Positions 44,331-54,789 of a stretch of 64,000 nt of DNA are shown here, piece after piece. The stretch is from positions 1 through 64,000 of the forward strand of contig JACVCD010000008.1 of NCBI GenBank assembly GCA_016742275.1, read 5' to 3'. The DNA comes from Gemmatimonadaceae bacterium (GTDB taxonomy: Bacteria; Gemmatimonadota; Gemmatimonadetes; Gemmatimonadales; Gemmatimonadaceae). Both the position numbers and the translations under genes were made by a program. Position 1 is the stretch's first letter; each line of letters begins with the position of its first letter. The notes below the pieces were generated by a model. That model saw only the letters and a list, made by a program, of their open reading frames with translations. It ran no database searches and was not told the origin of the DNA.

Positions 44331-45026
44331 ATGAAGCGCATGATGCAGCAGGCGGCGGTGTTCGCCGCGCTCTCCCTCGTTCCGCAGTTGCTCACCGCCC
44401 AGGAAGACAAGTCCACAGCCGTGAAGGGCGGTATTCAGGTATCCGGCTGGAAGGGCGTAGTCGATGCCAAGGAACTCGCCGCTGGTCTCACCGTCGATAG
44501 TGCCAAGTTCGTGACGATGGGTCAGGGCTTGCACGCCACGACCGGTCCCGCGATCACGTACTGGAATCCGACCATGTCCGGCAAGGGCGACTACACGGTC
44601 AAGGCCACCTTCAGTGAACGCGAGTACATGGGCCTCAACAATCACCCGCATCCCTACGGCATCGTGATGGCCGGCAACGATATGGGTACCGACAACGCCA
44701 GCTATCTCTACTGCGCGGCGTACGGAGACGGCAAGTTTATCGTGCGTGGTTTCGGCCCAACACCGTTCCAGATGAACGGCCGCGGTACTCCTCACGAAGC
44801 CGTCAACAAGGCTGAAGCGAAGGGCAAGCCGGTCACGCAGGAAATCGCGATGTCGGTGAAGGGTGACAAGGTGTCGTGCAGCATCAACGGCAAGGAAGTC
44901 GCCACGTATACCAAGGCAGAGGTCACGGGCGCCGGAAAGCTCAAGAGCACCGATGGCGCCGTGGGTTTCCGCATGGGACACAACACCGACGCGCACGTCG
45001 GTGGCTTCTCCCTCACCAAGAACTGA
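44331..45026 (+). CDS. Exported protein with concanavalin-like features, unknown
   Basis: The 231-residue product has a signal peptide (cleaved after LLTAQ, near residue 24). The mature protein has the feel of a lectin-like or DUF1080-type beta sandwich: SGKGDYTVKATFSE, SYLYCAAYGDGKFIVRGFG, EIAMSVKGDKVSCSINGKEV and GAVGFRMGHNTDAHVGGFSL. These resemble LamG/concanavalin jelly-roll proteins that bind glycans, but I cannot fix a family. GAGGA precedes ATG 44331. It lies 22 nt before the ketopantoate reductase-like gene and may share its transcript. Confidence 0.68.
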   Translation: MKRMMQQAAVFAALSLVPQLLTAQEDKSTAVKGGIQVSGWKGVVDAKELAAGLTVDSAKFVTMGQGLHATTGPAITYWNPTMSGKGDYTVKATFSEREYMGLNNHPHPYGIVMAGNDMGTDNASYLYCAAYGDGKFIVRGFGPTPFQMNGRGTPHEAVNKAEAKGKPVTQEIAMSVKGDKVSCSINGKEVATYTKAEVTGAGKLKSTDGAVGFRMGHNTDAHVGGFSLTKN

Positions 45027-46368: not shown

Positions 46369-48912
46369 ATGAAGGTTTTGCTCGCATGGTCCGGTCTCAC
46401 GGCAACAGTGACGCTTGTTACGTCGATGCTTTCGACGTCCGACGCGTCCACGTCTGCCCGTGCGTCCGTTGGTGCCACGCACGCGGTTCTCACCAACCGC
46501 ATATCCTCTGATCTCGTCGCCGCGCCGACATCGCGCGCCGGCACGGCTCTGCATGCGCCGATTCGTTTGCCGCGCGCGCCCATGAAGTACGGAGCGCGTG
46601 GTATCGAAGTCGCGGCACTCGACAGCACGGTGCAGCGCTATTGCGGCTCGTGTCACAACCCGACGAGGCCGCGAGGCAATCTCAGCTTGCGCGGCTACAC
46701 GATCGCGAACGCTGTGGATTCGTCGGCGCTAACGGAAAAGATTATCCGCAAGCTGCGTGCGGAGATGATGCCGCCCCCAGGTTCGAGACGCCCGGCGGGC
46801 GACACGCTCCTGGCTTTGGCGGAGACGCTCGAGGATCTGCGCGATGCGGAGCCGATCAATCCCGGTACACGCACGTTCCAGCGCCTCAATCGCGCGGAAT
46901 ACGAGCGCGTGATTCGCGACCTGCTCGGTCTCAAGGTTGATGCCGGCAATTGGCTGCCGCTCGACACCAAGAGCGCGAACTTCGACAACATCTCCGATGT
47001 GCAGTCGATGTCGCCGACTTTGCTTGAGGGTTACCTCAACGCCGCCTCGGCGGTGAGTCGTATCGCGATCGGTGACCGCAAGGCAGTGAACGGGCAGATC
47101 ACGTACAAGACTTCTCCGTTTGCCTCGCAGCACCCCTGGTATCGCGCCGAAGGTACGCCATACGGCACGCGCGGTGGCATGGTCATTCTGCACAACTTCC
47201 CGGCCGATGGCATCTACCAGCTCCGCGTGAATGTGGGTGGCGGTGTGGGTCGTCCGGTTGAAGACGTGGATGTCAGCATCGATGGCGAACGCGTGGCGCT
47301 GTTGCACTACGATCGTGGCGTCAACCGCAACGGTGAGTCGGCCGACTTGCCGCTCGGCGCCGACTATCTGCTGACCGAGCCCATCGCCATCAAGGGCGGA
47401 CAGCGCAACATCTCCGTGGCCTTCGTGCGCAACGCCGAAGGACCGTACGAAGATCTCATCAAGCCTCATGAGTGGTCGCGTGCGTCAAGCGGTAACGGCG
47501 CTGCCGGTACCACCGAGCCCGCGTATCTCATGGACGTGATGGTGACGGGACCGAGCAAGGTCACTGGCATCTCGGACACACCGGCGCGTCGTGCGGTGTT
47601 CACGTGCTCGCCGAAGGCCGCAGCGGCGCAGCGGACGTGCGCTGACTCGATCCTCACGCGACTGGCCACGCGCGCGTATCGCCGCCCGATCAACGCTACG
47701 GACCGCACGGCGCTGATGAGGTTCTACGATCAGGGTGTGAAGGCCAACAGCGACAACGCCTTTGAAGAAGGTGTGCGACTGGGTGTGCAGGCCGTTCTTG
47801 CCAGTCCGCACTTCATCTTCCGTTTCGAGCGGACGCCGAGCACGGTCGCCAGCGGCCGTGACTACAAGATTGATGATCTGGAGTTGGCCACGCGTCTTTC
47901 GTTCTTCCTGTGGAGCACGATCCCGGACGAACGTCTGCTGACGCTGGCGCGTCAGAAGCGCCTGTCGCAGCCGGCGGTCTTCCAGGCTGAAGTCAAGCGC
48001 ATGATGCGGGATGAGCGCGCTGAGGCGCTGGCTACGCGATTCGCCGCGCAGTGGCTGCGGTTGTCGGACCTTGAGAAGGTGCACCCCGATGCCTTCCTGT
48101 TCCCCGACTTCGATCAGCAGCTTGGCAACGCCATGGTCAAGGAAACGGAGCTCTTCTTCGAAGATCTCGTGCGCAAGGATCGCAGTGTGGTTTCGCTGTT
48201 CACCGCGGACTCGACCTTTGTGAATGAGCGTTTGGCCAAGCACTACAGCATTCCCGGAGTCACCGGTACGCACTTCCGAAAGGTGGCGTATGCTGATGAT
48301 CAGCGTCGCGGTGTGCTGGGTCATGGCAGCGTGCTCGTGCAGACCTCGCTCGGCAATCGCACCTCGCCAGTGTTGCGTGGCAAGTGGGTGATGGAAGTGC
48401 TTCTGGGCGCTCCACCGCCACCGCCGCCGCCAAACGTGCCGGATCTCGAGCAGACTGCCGGCGTCAAGGAAGGCAAGGCACTCACCACGCGTGAGCGCAT
48501 GGAGATGCACCGAGCGAATCCCGACTGCCGGTCGTGCCACAACTTCATCGACCCGATCGGTCTCGCGCTCGACAACTTCGACGTAACGGGCAAGCTGCGG
48601 TATCGCGAAAATGGTGCGCAGCTCGATACACGCGGCAACCTGTACGACGGTACCCCGCTGGTTCAGCCTACGGATCTGACGAAGGCGCTGCTCAAGCGTC
48701 CGATCCCGTTGATGCGGAACTTCACGGAAAACCTGATGGCCTACGCCCTCGGTCGCCGTGTTGAGGATTACGACATGCCCACCGTGCGCGCGATCGTGAA
48801 CACGGCGGCCAAGCAGGATTACCGCATGTCGGCGTTTGTGATGGGTGTAGTGAACAGCAAGGCGTTCCAGACCAAGCGTGCGGAAGCCGTTTCCGCTGAC
48901 GCATCCCACTGA
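46369..48912 (+). CDS. DUF1592-type cytochrome-like protein with two CxxCH motifs
   Basis: The 847-residue exported protein has a signal peptide (about 1-30). Two haem c motifs are visible: CGSCH at 92-96, in an N-terminal cytochrome-like domain, and CRSCH at 720-724. Between them are the blocks of the planctomycete-type DUF1587/DUF1592/DUF1588/DUF1595/DUF1585 family: RTFQRLNRAEYERVIRDLLG, ATRLSFFLWSTIPDERLL, TSLGNRTSPVLRGKWVMEV with its APPPPPPP run, and the C-terminal LMRNFTENLMAYALGRRVEDYD. The family is widespread but of unproven function. It is the first gene of a three-gene operon; the next gene starts 37 nt downstream. Confidence 0.93.
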   Translation: MKVLLAWSGLTATVTLVTSMLSTSDASTSARASVGATHAVLTNRISSDLVAAPTSRAGTALHAPIRLPRAPMKYGARGIEVAALDSTVQRYCGSCHNPTRPRGNLSLRGYTIANAVDSSALTEKIIRKLRAEMMPPPGSRRPAGDTLLALAETLEDLRDAEPINPGTRTFQRLNRAEYERVIRDLLGLKVDAGNWLPLDTKSANFDNISDVQSMSPTLLEGYLNAASAVSRIAIGDRKAVNGQITYKTSPFASQHPWYRAEGTPYGTRGGMVILHNFPADGIYQLRVNVGGGVGRPVEDVDVSIDGERVALLHYDRGVNRNGESADLPLGADYLLTEPIAIKGGQRNISVAFVRNAEGPYEDLIKPHEWSRASSGNGAAGTTEPAYLMDVMVTGPSKVTGISDTPARRAVFTCSPKAAAAQRTCADSILTRLATRAYRRPINATDRTALMRFYDQGVKANSDNAFEEGVRLGVQAVLASPHFIFRFERTPSTVASGRDYKIDDLELATRLSFFLWSTIPDERLLTLARQKRLSQPAVFQAEVKRMMRDERAEALATRFAAQWLRLSDLEKVHPDAFLFPDFDQQLGNAMVKETELFFEDLVRKDRSVVSLFTADSTFVNERLAKHYSIPGVTGTHFRKVAYADDQRRGVLGHGSVLVQTSLGNRTSPVLRGKWVMEVLLGAPPPPPPPNVPDLEQTAGVKEGKALTTRERMEMHRANPDCRSCHNFIDPIGLALDNFDVTGKLRYRENGAQLDTRGNLYDGTPLVQPTDLTKALLKRPIPLMRNFTENLMAYALGRRVEDYDMPTVRAIVNTAAKQDYRMSAFVMGVVNSKAFQTKRAEAVSADASH

Positions 48913-48949
48913 AGTTGCACTGACCAACCGACAAGAACCGGAGCATCCC

Positions 48950-50350
48950 ATGCAATTCCTCACGCAGAAGACGCTGGAGCGCCGCACGTTCCTCAAGGGA
49001 CTCAGTGCGACGATTGCCCTTCCCTATCTCGACGCCATGGCGCCGGCGGGTCGTTTCCTGCCGGGTAATGGCAATGCCGCAGCGGCGGGTCACACCCGTC
49101 TCGTGTGCATCGAGTCCGTACACGGCGCGGCCGGCAGCAATGCGTGGGGCGCCTCGAAGTACCTCTGGGCGCCAGAAGGTGTGGGTCGGCAGTTCGAGTT
49201 CAACGCCGACAGTGCACTCTCGCCGCTCCAGAACTGGCGCGACTATCTCACGATCGTAAGTAACACCGACACGCGCATGGCCGAGCCGTTTGACGCGCCG
49301 GAAATCGGTGGTGACCACTTCCGCTCGAGCGCGGTGTTCCTCACGCAGTCGCACCCGAAGCAGACGCAGGGCTCCGATCTGTATGTCGGCACGAGCTTCG
49401 ATCAGATCGTGGCGCGCAAGATCGGTCAGGACACGCCGATTCCGTCGATGCAGCTCTGCATCGAGAATCTCGACCAGGCCGGCGGTTGCCACTACAACTA
49501 TGCGTGCGCCTACACCGACACGATCAGCTGGGCGTCGCCCAATGATCCGCTGCCGATGATTCGTAATCCGCGCGCGGCGTTCGACCTGCTGTTTGGTGCT
49601 GGCGCGAACAACGCCGATCGTTCGGCGCGTCGCAAGGACAACGGCAGCATCCTTGACTGGGTGGTCGGTGAAATGTCGTCGCTGAAGCGTCAGCTCGGCC
49701 CGACCGATCGTCGCCGCGTTGATCAGTATCTCGAAAACGTGCGCGAACTCGAGCGTCGTATTCAGATGGTCGAAGCCAAGAACTCGAGTGGTGAAGAGCG
49801 CGCCATTCCTGAGGCGCCGACGGGTGTGCCCGATTCGTTCGAGGAGCACATGCGCCTGATGTTCGACATTCAGGTGCTGGCGTTCCAGTCCGACATGACG
49901 CGCGTGTTCTCATTCAAGACGGGCCGCGACGCCTCAAGCCGCGTGTATGCCGAGAGCGGCACGAACAAGGGCTTCCACCCCTCGTCGCACCATGGCGGAC
50001 GCGAAGCGGCCATCATGGAGTTCAACCTCATCAACAAGTATCACGTCGCGATGCTGCCGTACTTCTTCGAGAAGCTCAAGGCAACGCAGGACGGCGACAG
50101 CAACCTGCTCGACAACACGCTCATCGTGTACGGTTCGCCGATGGCCGATGGCAACATTCACAACCACCGTCGTTGCCCGCTGCTGCTCATGGGTGGCGCC
50201 AACGGCATGATCCCGCGCAACTCGCACCTCAAGGCGCCGGATGGCACGCCGATGGCCGACGTGTTCCTCTCGCTGCTGCACAAGTTCGGTGTGGAAACAC
50301 CGACGTTCGGCGACAGCGTGGCGCCGTTTGCCCTTTACACCAACGCCTGA
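48950..50350 (+). CDS. Tat-exported DUF1552 protein
   Basis: The 466-residue protein has a twin-arginine signal, ERRTFLKGLSATIALPYLDA, typical of DUF1552. Other family marks are ARLVCIESVHG-like strand (TRLVCIESVHGAAG), GGDHFRSSAVFLT, the central DQYLENVRELERRIQ helix and NTLIVYGSPMADGNIHNHRR, with clustered His that may bind metal. The fold resembles sulfatase/alkaline-phosphatase-like proteins. DUF1552 genes nearly always follow a DUF1592-type gene, as here, so the two probably act together. Function is unknown. GGAG precedes ATG 48950; the longer open frame at 48878 lacks support. It is 7 nt from the ankyrin gene. Confidence 0.93.
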   Translation: MQFLTQKTLERRTFLKGLSATIALPYLDAMAPAGRFLPGNGNAAAAGHTRLVCIESVHGAAGSNAWGASKYLWAPEGVGRQFEFNADSALSPLQNWRDYLTIVSNTDTRMAEPFDAPEIGGDHFRSSAVFLTQSHPKQTQGSDLYVGTSFDQIVARKIGQDTPIPSMQLCIENLDQAGGCHYNYACAYTDTISWASPNDPLPMIRNPRAAFDLLFGAGANNADRSARRKDNGSILDWVVGEMSSLKRQLGPTDRRRVDQYLENVRELERRIQMVEAKNSSGEERAIPEAPTGVPDSFEEHMRLMFDIQVLAFQSDMTRVFSFKTGRDASSRVYAESGTNKGFHPSSHHGGREAAIMEFNLINKYHVAMLPYFFEKLKATQDGDSNLLDNTLIVYGSPMADGNIHNHRRCPLLLMGGANGMIPRNSHLKAPDGTPMADVFLSLLHKFGVETPTFGDSVAPFALYTNA

Positions 50351-50357
50351 GGTCTCG

Positions 50358-52499
50358 GTGGATACTCGAGGCAAAACGGACTGGACGCGGCGACTGACCG
50401 GAGCCGCCGCGCTCCTGGTCGGCGTCACGTCGGTCGTGACGGCGCAGGACACCAAGCCGGTGGTGCGTGTTTCCACATCGGCCGCGACGGCGGCGCCAAG
50501 CGCCACCTCGCTGGCCAATGCGGCCATGCGCGGTGATCTCGCATCGGTGCGCGCATTGCTTGCACAGCGCGCCGATGTGAACAGCGCAACAGGCGATGGC
50601 ATGACGGCGTTGCATTGGGCCGCTGAGCGTGGTGATGTGGCCATGGTGCAGGCGCTGATCAAGGCTGGCGCAAACATCAAGGCGACTACGCGCAACGGTG
50701 GACACACGGCGCTCCATGTGGCGGCGAAGTCCGGCAACAGCGAAGTCGTGAAGGCGTTGCTCGCGGGCGGCGCGGATGCGCGTGCGGTCACAAGCAGTGG
50801 TGCAACTTCGTTGCACCTTGCGGCCCAGGCTGGTGATGCGGCATCGATCACGGCGCTCGTGGCTGGCAAGGCCGATGTAAACGCGAAGGAAACATCGTGG
50901 GGCCAGACGCCACTGATGTTTGCCGCCGCACTCGATCGTTCAGCAGCGGTCACTGCGCTGCTCAAGGCCGGTGCCAATCCCGCGGTCAAGACCAGCACGC
51001 AGGATCTCACGGAAGAACTCGCGCGTCAGCAGGCTGCAGCGCGAAAGCGCAACGAAGTGTTGTTCGATGCGCTGCCGCAGACGGTGAAGGACTCCATCAT
51101 CAAGGCGGCGGAGAAGGCGGCGTTGGCAGCCATTCCCGCTGGTCGTGGAGGTCCGCCGGGAGCGCCTGGTGCGGCTCCAGGTGCACCAGCCGGCGCCCCT
51201 GCGGGAGCACAGGCTGCACAGCAGCGTCAGATGGCCACACCCGCGACGGCGGCGCCCGCAACCGCCGCTGCTGCAGGAGCGGCGGCCAAGCCCGACAGTG
51301 CCAAGAAGCCGGCGTACAAGGTTGGTCTCGCGGCTCCGCCGGTGAACGATCTCACGCCGGCACAGATCCAGGCCGCTATTATGGCCGGACGCACGGTCTA
51401 CACGTCAGAGCTCAAGGACAAGAGCACTGAACAAGTCATTCCGCTCGACACCACCAACGGCTTTCAGGCGGGCTATGAAGGCACGGTGGGCAGTGTCGGT
51501 GGACTGACGGCACTGCTGCACGCTGCGCGTCAGGGCAATGTGGCGGCCTCGATGGCATTGATCGATGGAGGAGCCAACATCAACGAACCGTCGTTGAGTG
51601 ACAGCACCACGCCATTGCTCATGGCCACGATCAACGGCCACTTCGATCTGGCCATGCAGTTGGTGAAGCGTGGAGCCAATGTGAAGGCCGAGAGCATTCA
51701 TGGGCTCACGCCGTTGTATGCGGCGCTCAACATCGTGTGGCATCCGACGTCGCGCTATCCGCAGCCGCAGGCCGTGCAGAATCAGAAGACCACGCACATC
51801 GAACTGATGGATGCGATGATCAAGGCTGGTGCGGATGTGAACGTGCGTCTGCGCAAGAACATCTGGTTCTTCGGCTTCAGCAACTGTGGTAACGCCAACT
51901 GCGGCCTCGAACTGCTGGACGGCACGTCGCCGTTCTGGCGCGCGGCGTACGCGGTAGACCTCGATGCGATGAAGCTGCTCAAGGCTGCCGGTGCCAACGA
52001 CACCATGCCGTCGTATCGTCCGCCGCAGGCGAATCGTCGTCGCGGTGGTGGTGAAGGTTTTGGTGGCCCGCCGGCCACGGCCATCGACGCGTCGGTCGAT
52101 TCAGCTGCCAAGGCGGTTCCGCCGGGTATCGGCACGTATCCTGTGCATGCTGCCGCTGGTGTGGGTTACGGCAACGGCTTTGCCGGCAACGCGCATCGTC
52201 ATGCGCCGGACGGCTGGATGCCGGCCATGAAGTATCTCGTGGAAGAACTCCATCACGACGTGAACAAGCGTGATTTGGGTGGCTACACCCCGCTGCATCA
52301 CGCGGCCGCGCGTGGTGACAACGAGATGATTCTGTATCTCGTGAGCAAGGGTGCCGATCCCAAGGCCGTAGCTCGCGACTTCAAGACCACGGTCGACATG
52401 GCCAACGGACCGGTGCAGCGTCTGCGTCCCTTCCCAGAAACGATTCAGTTGCTCGAGAAGCTCGGCGCCAAGAACAGCCATCGCTGCGTCGGCTGCTGA
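50358..52499 (+). CDS. Exported ankyrin-repeat protein
   Basis: The 713-residue product has a signal peptide (cleaved near residue 30, VVTAQ). Ankyrin repeats form two clusters, about 53-220 (DGMTALHWAAERGDVAMVQALI and GGHTALHVAAKSGNSEVVKALL) and about 365-480, with a final group at about 605-700 (GGYTPLHHAAARGDNEMILYLV). An Ala/Pro/Gly-rich linker lies at about 258-320. The protein ends in HRCVGC, a CxxC. Ankyrin domains usually hold partner proteins, so it may bind the DUF1592 or DUF1552 proteins in the periplasm. The start is GTG 50358 with GAGG before it; the operon then ends at a strong terminator. Confidence 0.9.
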   Translation: MDTRGKTDWTRRLTGAAALLVGVTSVVTAQDTKPVVRVSTSAATAAPSATSLANAAMRGDLASVRALLAQRADVNSATGDGMTALHWAAERGDVAMVQALIKAGANIKATTRNGGHTALHVAAKSGNSEVVKALLAGGADARAVTSSGATSLHLAAQAGDAASITALVAGKADVNAKETSWGQTPLMFAAALDRSAAVTALLKAGANPAVKTSTQDLTEELARQQAAARKRNEVLFDALPQTVKDSIIKAAEKAALAAIPAGRGGPPGAPGAAPGAPAGAPAGAQAAQQRQMATPATAAPATAAAAGAAAKPDSAKKPAYKVGLAAPPVNDLTPAQIQAAIMAGRTVYTSELKDKSTEQVIPLDTTNGFQAGYEGTVGSVGGLTALLHAARQGNVAASMALIDGGANINEPSLSDSTTPLLMATINGHFDLAMQLVKRGANVKAESIHGLTPLYAALNIVWHPTSRYPQPQAVQNQKTTHIELMDAMIKAGADVNVRLRKNIWFFGFSNCGNANCGLELLDGTSPFWRAAYAVDLDAMKLLKAAGANDTMPSYRPPQANRRRGGGEGFGGPPATAIDASVDSAAKAVPPGIGTYPVHAAAGVGYGNGFAGNAHRHAPDGWMPAMKYLVEELHHDVNKRDLGGYTPLHHAAARGDNEMILYLVSKGADPKAVARDFKTTVDMANGPVQRLRPFPETIQLLEKLGAKNSHRCVGC

Positions 52500-52517: not shown

Positions 52518-52554
52518 AAAGCGGCGCGCTTCCTCATCGGGAGCGCGCCGCTTT
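52518..52554. terminator. Bidirectional terminator between ankyrin and Ala-rich genes
   Basis: AAAGCGGCGCGCT at 52518-52530 pairs perfectly with AGCGCGCCGCTTT at 52542-52554: a 13-bp GC-rich stem with an 11-nt loop. A-runs before and T-runs after give both strands a terminator look. Confidence 0.9.
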
Positions 52555-52573: not shown

Positions 52574-53671
52574 TTACTTCTTCTCGCCTGCGAGCAGCAG
52601 CTTGAGATGTTCGTCCGCCTGCTGCAAACCGCCTTCGTCCTTGTCCCAGCCAATCCGACCGTCGGCGTTGCTGTCCACACCAGCCGCGAGCTGTGCACAC
52701 ACTGACGCGAGTTGCGCTGTCAGCGTGGCCGCCGCTGCCGCATCCTTGGCTTCGCGAATTTGCTTGGCGAGCGCGACGGCCTGTTCTGCGCGTTTCATCG
52801 CACTGCGTGAAGCCGTAGCAACGTGTTGCGCGTGAGTCTTCACGTTGGGCGACGCGGTGGACTCTTTGGCCGCCAATTCGACGTGCTGCGCCACTCCACC
52901 GGCTGCGCGAACAAAGCCAAAGCCCTTGCCCGGTCCTGTCTTCTCGATGTTTGGATCGAGCGCGTGCAGCACGTGGCCCGCGTGTAACTGCATCGCGGCC
53001 AAGTCCGTTGGTGTGCGCGTGGCCAGCGTGGCATGCTGCGCGGCAATCTGCGCCTCGGCAAAGGCCATGGGCAGGAAGCCCGACTTGTCGGGCGTATCCA
53101 CGAAGCTCGTGGTGACGTGACCGATGTGCGTTCCGACCATGCCGGCCGGCAACGCGCTCGCTGCCACGAACCCACGCACCACGGGTGGGGCGATTCGTCC
53201 AGGCAATGGCGCACCGGTCATGCGAGCGACCACGCTGTCGAACTGCGCGCGATATTCGGCGTTGGTGCTGATCAGGAAACGCCGACGGAGGTACTCGTCT
53301 TCATCGAGGCCCTTGGTCTTGAGCACGGCGACAAATTGCTCGCGCTTTTTGACGGAAAGCTCGTGCTGCGCTTCCTTGGTCTTGTTTTTCGTCTGTGCTG
53401 ACAAGGCATCGGCCGAGTCATGCACGGCACCGATGGCCAGATGCGCTTCTGCCAATGCGCGGATGTCTGCCAGTGTGAGTGGCGTACGCGCTGCTGCGGG
53501 CGCGGATTGTGTGCCTGACTGCGTCCCACCCTGCGCCATGGCGGCGGACGGTGTGATGAGCGTGGCAAACAGGAGTGCGCCCGCAAGGCGGGAAGCCACC
53601 GCATGCAACTTCGGTGACCGGAGGGCGCGGGTTGCGTCGGGAGCGACGCACTTCGGGAGGGAGGAAGGCAT
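52574..53671 (-). CDS. Exported Ala-rich protein with EF-hand-like loop
   Basis: The 365-residue product has a signal peptide (cleaved after SAAMAQ, near residue 47). The start could be an inner Met. Residues about 65-150 are helical and resemble DUF4168 (AVLKTKGLDEDEYLRRR). Residues about 160-330 are Ala/His-rich helices. Near the C-terminus is an EF-hand-like loop, DSNADGRIGWDKDE, with Asp at 1, Asn at 3 and Asp-Gly at 5-6; position 12 is Lys, not Glu, so the calcium site is imperfect. It converges on the ankyrin gene over a strong terminator. Function unknown. Confidence 0.72.
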   Translation of the reverse strand: MPSSLPKCVAPDATRALRSPKLHAVASRLAGALLFATLITPSAAMAQGGTQSGTQSAPAAARTPLTLADIRALAEAHLAIGAVHDSADALSAQTKNKTKEAQHELSVKKREQFVAVLKTKGLDEDEYLRRRFLISTNAEYRAQFDSVVARMTGAPLPGRIAPPVVRGFVAASALPAGMVGTHIGHVTTSFVDTPDKSGFLPMAFAEAQIAAQHATLATRTPTDLAAMQLHAGHVLHALDPNIEKTGPGKGFGFVRAAGGVAQHVELAAKESTASPNVKTHAQHVATASRSAMKRAEQAVALAKQIREAKDAAAAATLTAQLASVCAQLAAGVDSNADGRIGWDKDEGGLQQADEHLKLLLAGEKK

Positions 53672-53823: not shown

Positions 53824-54789
53824 ATGATTACGCGACGCCCGCGTCGTTCGTTCGTACCCGCGTTCGGGTACACCAGTCTGTACGCCGCCGTGGCCATGAC
53901 CGCCATCAGCTCCATTGCGCATGCGCAGGCACGCCCAGCGCAGGATCCGCGCAGCATGGGTGGCGGCAATTGTGCAAACAACACATACAATTGCCGGGAC
54001 ACGCCGAACCCGCTTCCCGCACCCAACACGGTGTGGATGGAAGAGATGACCTGGATGGACATCCGCGATGCCATCAAGGCCGGGAAAACCACCGTCATCA
54101 TTACCACCGGTGGTATGGAGCCGAACGGACCATGGTTGGTGACCGGCAAGCACAATTACGTGCTCCATACCAACTGCGAAGCCATCGCTCGCAAGCTTGG
54201 CAACGCCCTCTGTGCACCCATTGTGAAGTTCGTTCCGGAAGGCGGAGTGGAGCCGCCGACTGGGCACATGACCTCACCGGGGACGATCAGCATGCGTGAA
54301 GGCACCTTCCGCGCGCTGCTCACCGACATCGTGACCAGTCTCAAGACGCACGGATTTGAAAAGATCATCCTGATCGGCGACAGCGGCGGCAATCAGAACG
54401 GTCAACGCGGCGTGGCAGACTCTCTGACCGCCATCTGGAAGGGCTCCCCGATCGTGGCGCATGTGCAGGAGTACTACGACTACAACAAGGCCACGGAGTA
54501 CATGAAGACCAAAGGCCTTGCCGAGGGCGCGTCGGACAATCTGCACGACGATGTGATCATCACGCTCAACATGATGATCGACGATCCCAAGAGCGTGCGC
54601 TATGACGAACGTGTGAAGGCCGGCAAGGCCACGATCAATGGCGTGTCGATCGCTGATCGCAAGAAGGCGCTCGACTGGGCAAAGTTGATTGTCGATCACC
54701 GCGCCACGATCACCGTCGAAGCCATCAACAAGGCCATCGCCAACAAGGGCACGTTGCCTGCACCGGCGCGTCGTCCGGCAGGAAACTGA
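53824..54789 (+). CDS. Exported creatininase-family protein with altered metal site
   Basis: The 321-residue product has a signal peptide (cleaved after AHAQ, near residue 35), unusual because creatininases are cytoplasmic. The family blocks are present but changed: ITTGGMEPNGPWLVTGKHNY aligns with the PxGSxEQHGPHLPLGTD motif, keeping E99 but replacing the two His by N101 and W104 and the Asp by H110. LIGDSGGNQNG aligns with NGHGGN, losing its His. The usual two-metal centre is therefore unlikely. Cys50, Cys57 and the later Cys may form disulfides. GGAG precedes ATG 53824 and a strong terminator follows. Activity unknown. Confidence 0.82.
   Translation: MITRRPRRSFVPAFGYTSLYAAVAMTAISSIAHAQARPAQDPRSMGGGNCANNTYNCRDTPNPLPAPNTVWMEEMTWMDIRDAIKAGKTTVIITTGGMEPNGPWLVTGKHNYVLHTNCEAIARKLGNALCAPIVKFVPEGGVEPPTGHMTSPGTISMREGTFRALLTDIVTSLKTHGFEKIILIGDSGGNQNGQRGVADSLTAIWKGSPIVAHVQEYYDYNKATEYMKTKGLAEGASDNLHDDVIITLNMMIDDPKSVRYDERVKAGKATINGVSIADRKKALDWAKLIVDHRATITVEAINKAIANKGTLPAPARRPAGN

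Follow-up and report, generated by a model that had tools for sequence, protein, structure and literature searches.

A recurrent DUF1592-DUF1552-ankyrin gene trio in Gemmatimonadota and Acidobacteria, a possible exported redox module

Three genes lie head to tail on the plus strand of the window, which is the whole 64,000-nucleotide stretch of Gemmatimonadaceae contig JACVCD010000008.1 that was analyzed. The first (46369–48912) encodes a DUF1592-family protein of 847 aa, the second (48950–50350) a DUF1552 (HXXSHH) protein of 466 aa, and the third (50358–52499, with a GTG start) an ankyrin-repeat protein of 713 aa, with gaps of 37 nt between the first two genes and 7 nt between the second and third. 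We read all three proteins as beginning with apparent export signals, that of the DUF1552 protein being of the Tat type and those of the DUF1592 and ankyrin proteins having been called by eye. The DUF1552 protein matched Pfam PF07586 at 287.7 bits, compared to a cut-off of 30 (E = 1.8e-85), and the ankyrin protein matched Ank_2 (2.4e-49), Ank and Ank_4 above their cut-offs. The first-pass annotation had described three exported proteins in a tight operon, the first with two CxxCH motifs, the second with a twin-arginine signal and histidine clusters, and the third with ankyrin repeats, and the coordinates, signals and Pfam matches agree with that description. The strong terminator that it placed at the end of the operon held up in part. 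A GC-rich, terminator-like hairpin lies at 52518–52554 between convergent genes and folds stably on both strands relative to shuffled sequences (-35.3 kcal/mol, z -6.2 on the plus strand; -34.7 kcal/mol, z -5.7 on the minus strand), but a T-rich tail is present only on the minus strand, and so the hairpin is probably shared by both convergent genes and better suited to the opposite gene at 52574–53671 (minus strand). This hairpin was absent from the output of a consensus terminator scan, and a simple scan returned no sigma-70-like promoter, a result that carries little weight in such an organism. The opposite gene encodes an exported protein that matches no Pfam family but has relatives similar to DUF4168 proteins, and beyond it lies a gene for an exported creatininase-family protein (53824–54789, plus strand). 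Upstream of the operon, 44331–45026 (plus strand) encodes an exported protein without Pfam or NCBIfam match that is kept in relatives with the same locus.

The DUF1592 protein is composed of a signal, a PSCyt1 cytochrome domain, PSD3 (DUF1587), a beta-sandwich, PSD5, PSD4 (DUF1592), PSCyt3 (DUF1588) and PSD2 (DUF1585), in that order, and each of the PSCyt and PSD domains exceeded its Pfam cut-off. The two CxxCH motifs are CGSCH near the N-terminus (residues 92–96; 46642–46656, plus strand) and CRSCH near the C-terminus (residues 720–724; 48526–48540, plus strand). Cys92, Cys95, His96 and Met134 were found in every covering row of the alignment (141 ankyrin-type and 23–24 other proteins), and Met134, which lies in a Met-Pro-Pro sequence and is a candidate distal heme ligand, is conserved with or without an ankyrin partner. 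At the second motif, Cys723 and His724 were present in 168/168 rows and Cys720 in all except one gap. A profile of the N-terminal domain searched against the PDB retrieved class I cytochromes c, each single domain weakly, with a summed E of 2.5e-7 to a cytochrome trimer and 0.002 for the next match. In a single-chain AlphaFold model (pLDDT 83, pTM 0.84), residues 237–399 (47077–47565, plus strand) form a beta-sandwich that has no Pfam match and resembles carbohydrate-binding modules of the CBM6/35/36 type by fold match only, with a VIA Z of 9.6 over 105 residues to the CBM36-bearing XynJ and a Foldseek value of 4e-4 to a CBM36 domain; CBM35 and CBM6 domains were also matched. Because unrelated beta-sandwiches score close behind, this likeness is a statement about fold, and sugar binding is unproven. 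The listed fold matches were all filled by this domain and are uninformative on the helical parts, and a PDB sequence search with the DUF1592 and DUF1552 proteins returned no credible whole-protein relative. Our best guess is that the DUF1592 protein is a two-heme c-type cytochrome with a carbohydrate-binding-like domain, heme occupancy being deduced from the motifs.

The Tat motif of the DUF1552 protein is RRTFLK (residues 11–16; 48980–48997, plus strand), and a Tat-like motif occurs in 166 of the 171 DUF1552 proteins aligned. The single-chain model (pLDDT 75, pTM 0.81) matched choline sulfatase 6fny (VIA Z 16.5, 256 residues, rmsd 3.8), as well as phosphonate hydrolases and nucleotide pyrophosphatases (2gsn) over approximately 250 residues with Z near 16, and the predicted fold is that of the alkaline phosphatase/sulfatase superfamily. 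Sulfatases carry their nucleophile at the start of the equivalent helix, within the signature CxPSRaallTGryP. The DUF1552 stretch HFRSSAVFLTQSHP aligns by pattern with this signature, and His123 (49316–49318, plus strand) stands at the start of a helix that spans residues 122–132 in the model. From this pattern and the secondary structure, we infer that His123 occupies the sulfatase nucleophile position; it was found in 150/150 proteins of the two closer DUF1552 classes, and was aligned in 13 of 21 distant ones. The HXXSHH motif (49976–49993, plus strand) contributes His343, His347 and His348, of which the first two occur in 170/171 rows, and a His404-x-His406 pair (50159–50167, plus strand) may form the C-terminal half of a putative metal site, with His404 in 169/171 rows and His406 variable beyond the closest class. 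Near-universal residues include, besides His343, His347 and His404, Asp151, Asp236, Asp315 and Arg318. Unlike sulfatases, DUF1552 proteins appear to have a histidine in place of the nucleophile and to lack a conserved aspartate on strand 1 (residue 55 is Glu, Tyr or Phe, and is one of the latter two in many members), and they carry the HXXSHH motif and are exported via Tat. The model, being alkaline phosphatase/sulfatase-like, does not make DUF1552 visibly a redox protein. We also considered the Cys180/Cys186 loop as a docking site for the ankyrin protein, and rejected it, as the loop occurs in close relatives that have no ankyrin neighbor.

The ankyrin protein has two repeat blocks, an Ala/Pro-rich linker between them, and a CVGC end. 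The second block contains many conserved non-repeat residues in the family alignment, more than would be needed for a plain repeat scaffold. The CxxC end pointed out in the first-pass annotation is present and is common in Gemmatimonadota (80/91 modules), but is rare in Acidobacteria; because only 6/36 acidobacterial modules have it, it is not a core feature, and we rejected it as a redox motif of the system. It is plausible that this protein holds the DUF1592 and DUF1552 proteins together as a putative scaffold. A natural DUF1552-ankyrin fusion, in which the contact might have been modeled, was sought and none was found.

Examination of gene neighborhoods revealed that the ankyrin gene is by no means rare beside the pair. 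In fetched loci, scored only where uncut by a contig end, it lay within 1.5 kb of the pair for 102 of 107 Gemmatimonadota DUF1592 genes, adjoined 39 of 49 acidobacterial DUF1592 genes, and was beside 0 of 11 in one planctomycete genome. These figures should not be read as independent draws, since closely related and a few duplicate loci are among those scored. The five Gemmatimonadota exceptions are largely accounted for, since three rows represent tandem pairs with one common ankyrin gene (two of them a single locus that was fetched twice), and the remaining two have an ankyrin gene at a greater distance. Presence of the families across genomes shows the same association. DUF1552 was found in 75 of 200 Gemmatimonadota genomes, and the ankyrin family, at E<=1e-60, in the same 75, while among 80 genomes of the Acidobacteria set DUF1552 was found in 11 and the ankyrin family (E<=1e-50) in 6, all of them within the 11. 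Two further genomes of that set, G300 (at a contig edge) and G333, have an ankyrin gene beside the pair that fell under the cut-off. The position of the acidobacterial ankyrin gene varies, and may be downstream, upstream, divergent or convergent relative to the pair. Pairs that lack an ankyrin gene occur in the planctomycete genome and in divergent acidobacterial branches, and no full-length ankyrin match was found in 79 genomes sampled from the phylum of that planctomycete. In total, the trio was found in about 140 modules examined, confirming that its recurrence exceeds chance. DUF1552 is also highly multiplied in some genomes: of the six genomes first inspected from Acidobacteria and planctomycetes (G200–G205), one has 15 copies and the others have 24–37 each.

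To place the ankyrin-linked proteins, we constructed a FastTree phylogeny of 97 DUF1592 proteins, with rows filtered at 72% identity. A single branch with a support of 99 contained 75 ankyrin-linked and 4 unlinked rows, and in 3 of the 4 the ankyrin gene is shared or more distant; proteins from planctomycetes, along with divergent ones from Acidobacteria, fell outside this branch and have no ankyrin partner. Ankyrin adjacency is thus essentially the mark of one DUF1592 clade. The linkage label requires 5 changes on the tree, as would be expected from a single gain with a handful of nominal losses, gain and loss being indistinguishable on the tree itself. Pairwise distances among the three proteins were strongly correlated across 127 modules (r 0.93–0.94). 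More weight belongs to the test within one acidobacterial genome, because the correlation across 127 modules could reflect common descent of the genomes. Among 17 modules of that genome, r was 0.75 for DUF1592-DUF1552, 0.75 for DUF1592-ankyrin and 0.61 for DUF1552-ankyrin, with 0 of 2000 permutations as high (p<=0.0005); correlations were weaker in a smaller within-genome set of 7 modules. Two loci, L162 and L167, are reciprocal nearest relatives for all three proteins despite a different gene order. These patterns show that the three genes of a module are generally duplicated together and diverge as a unit. The proposal that the locus holds an undescribed system is borne out to the extent that co-occurrence, adjacency, co-diversification and linkage maintained through changes of order strongly support DUF1592-DUF1552-ankyrin as a genuine three-gene system.

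Pairing of DUF1592 with DUF1552 was already known, and the ankyrin partner is the new element, for which no report was found in the literature searched, most subscription papers lying outside it; likewise, no published assay of any member of the ankyrin-type clade was found. In Verrucomicrobia, PSCyt3 (DUF1588) proteins are paired with a family of unknown function (PMC5615132), and the likeness to our locus consists of a DUF1592-type protein next to such a family. The planctomycete pairs that we examined are unlike the present trio, in that they have no adjacent ankyrin gene and their DUF1592 proteins are divergent. A functional parallel is provided by Cbp2D of Cellvibrio japonicus, in which a class I cytochrome domain (X183) and DUF1587 precede an X132 region bearing a second CxxCH (PMC8981238); in the absence of Cbp2D, the organism grows less well on insoluble cellulose (PMC12542752). 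The two are alike in being exported, in having sugar-binding or similarly folded modules, and in the progression from a class I cytochrome through DUF1587 to a C-terminal CxxCH (PMC8981238, Fig. 1 text); by published annotation rather than by sequence comparison, X132 would correspond to DUF1595-1592-1588-1585. In contrast, Cbp2D has CBM2, FN3 and YceI-like (X158) domains, and was studied together with Cbp2E, with neither DUF1552 nor an ankyrin protein reported as a partner, whereas the DUF1592 protein here has no Pfam match to CBM2 or YceI-like X158 and a CBM6/35/36-like fold instead. X183 of Cbp2D is able to reduce a lytic polysaccharide monooxygenase (PMC12542752). However, the electron donor role is not general, because the monooxygenase of a shipworm symbiont received no electrons from the X183 domains of that organism (PMC10916295). 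A Cellvibrio CBM2-DUF1592 protein is also present in a straw-degrading secretome (PMC6004670).

We propose, with a probability of roughly 0.36, that the trio is an exported redox module and that its substrates are glycan-like or poly-hydroxylated; DUF1552 would be the catalytic component and the ankyrin protein the scaffold, the catalysis, substrate and contacts being conjectural. The DUF1592 protein would serve as both electron carrier and substrate binder, by means of its two hemes and CBM-like domain, and DUF1552, exported in folded form via Tat, would act as its catalytic partner, with conserved histidines and acids, probably a metal site, replacing the usual nucleophile at the active-site position. 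The ankyrin protein may be a cognate scaffold linking the two. Such a module could oxidize, or oxidatively open, glycan-like or polymeric material beyond the inner membrane, with electrons leaving through the DUF1592 hemes, and paralogous copies in one genome could be directed at different substrates, a division of labor that the 24–37 DUF1552 copies per genome would suit. The first-pass annotation had suggested a periplasmic redox machine, and this idea fares well for the DUF1592 protein, where the invariant CxxCH motifs, Met134, the class I cytochrome profile and the Cbp2D parallel support a redox role, but less well for DUF1552, in view of its fold.

Genes surrounding the modules offered few clues to the substrate. 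A partnership with PQQ dehydrogenase was considered and set aside, with such genes at 8/20 acidobacterial modules compared to 4/20 random regions of the same genome (p = 0.15), and NHL, PQQ_2 and beta-lactamase genes showed no significant excess over random same-genome regions. An exported family with the motif PNLQGVWSN (c4; for example L163:2514–3536, minus strand, and relatives, without Pfam match) occurred at 8/20 acidobacterial modules and 1/20 controls (p = 0.0098), an excess that was not significant after ten tests. In Gemmatimonadota, 32 dereplicated loci were compared with 20 control regions, and creatininase-like (8/32), HpcH (7/32), SusD-like (7/32) and DUF4168-like (7/32) neighbors were each absent from the controls (0/20), but these excesses are hints only, because the families were chosen from the same loci, which makes the test circular and weak. 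Since the neighbor families fail their controls, the glycan-like substrate of the proposed module is suggested solely by the CBM-like fold and the parallel with Cbp2D.

It is conceivable, although unlikely, that DUF1552 is instead a metal-dependent hydrolase (a sulfatase, phosphatase or esterase-like enzyme), and that the DUF1592 protein mainly binds or anchors, with its hemes relieving or sensing the redox state. The sulfatase/phosphodiesterase-like fold of the model is what such an enzyme would have, and in Verrucomicrobia PSCyt genes are located near sulfatase genes (PMC5615132), but the apparent nucleophile position is a histidine, many members have Tyr or Phe in place of the strand-1 acid, and invariance of both heme motifs would be needless in a mere binding protein. 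Slightly less credible is the notion that the ankyrin protein helps the cytochrome to acquire heme or another cofactor, in the style of a catalase helper, and that the trio handles peroxide or another oxidant. There is a precedent in Campylobacter, where the ankyrin-containing Cj1386 delivers heme to the catalase KatA (PMC11442138), and in both cases an ankyrin protein is linked to a heme protein, here through the close proximity of their genes; however, KatA is a catalase with non-covalent heme, as opposed to an exported c-type cytochrome accompanied by a third protein. In addition, DUF1592-DUF1552 pairs occur without an ankyrin gene in the planctomycete and the divergent acidobacterial branches, and 24–37 divergent copies per genome would be unusual for stress defense. 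Covalent attachment of c-type heme is, moreover, already the task of the general Ccm/Ccs machinery. We are more doubtful still that the module has nothing to do with glycan use and instead handles respiratory electrons, as a conduit or as a receptor for humic material or other extracellular electron donors. Two heme motifs per protein and the lack of substrate-specific neighbors would suit a conduit, but two are few for this purpose, no porin-cytochrome partner was seen, and both the CBM-like domain and the place of Cbp2D in cellulose use argue for a substrate of another kind. Finally, it is very improbable that the ankyrin gene is a passenger of regional clustering whose product has no physical link to DUF1592 and DUF1552, because proximity is kept while order and orientation change and the partner distances agree within one genome.

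Several environmental phyla are rich in planctomycete-type cytochromes and the DUF proteins that accompany them, to which no function has been assigned. The module described here offers a defined three-protein unit together with a panel of co-diversified paralogs in a single genome, and suggests a bridge to the work on cellulose use by Cbp2D, in which seemingly equivalent parts go by the names X183 and X132. A catalytic role of the DUF1552 histidine site, if there is one, would represent new chemistry on a well-known fold. A bolder version of the exported redox module, which we consider distinctly unlikely, is that DUF1552 is a histidine-ligated metal oxidoreductase on a sulfatase fold, to which the two-heme DUF1592 protein supplies electrons or from which it withdraws them, and that both are assembled on the exported ankyrin scaffold as a new class of oxidative machine for attacking polymers; some Acidobacteria would then possess dozens of substrate-specific copies of this machine.

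At one of the other loci examined (L126:2593–3929), the DUF1552 gene is broken into two overlapping frames, which is probably due to a frameshift or an assembly error. The genome from which the window was taken contains one other DUF1592-DUF1552 pair, and here too an ankyrin gene of this family comes next (L047:4782–10930, contig C21). Surrounding this second trio are genes for a TonB receptor, a SusD-like lipoprotein (called by pattern, without a Pfam match), HpcH/HpaI-like and RidA-like proteins, a HupE-cytochrome and a PQQ dehydrogenase, and the gene order in this region is mostly preserved among close relatives.
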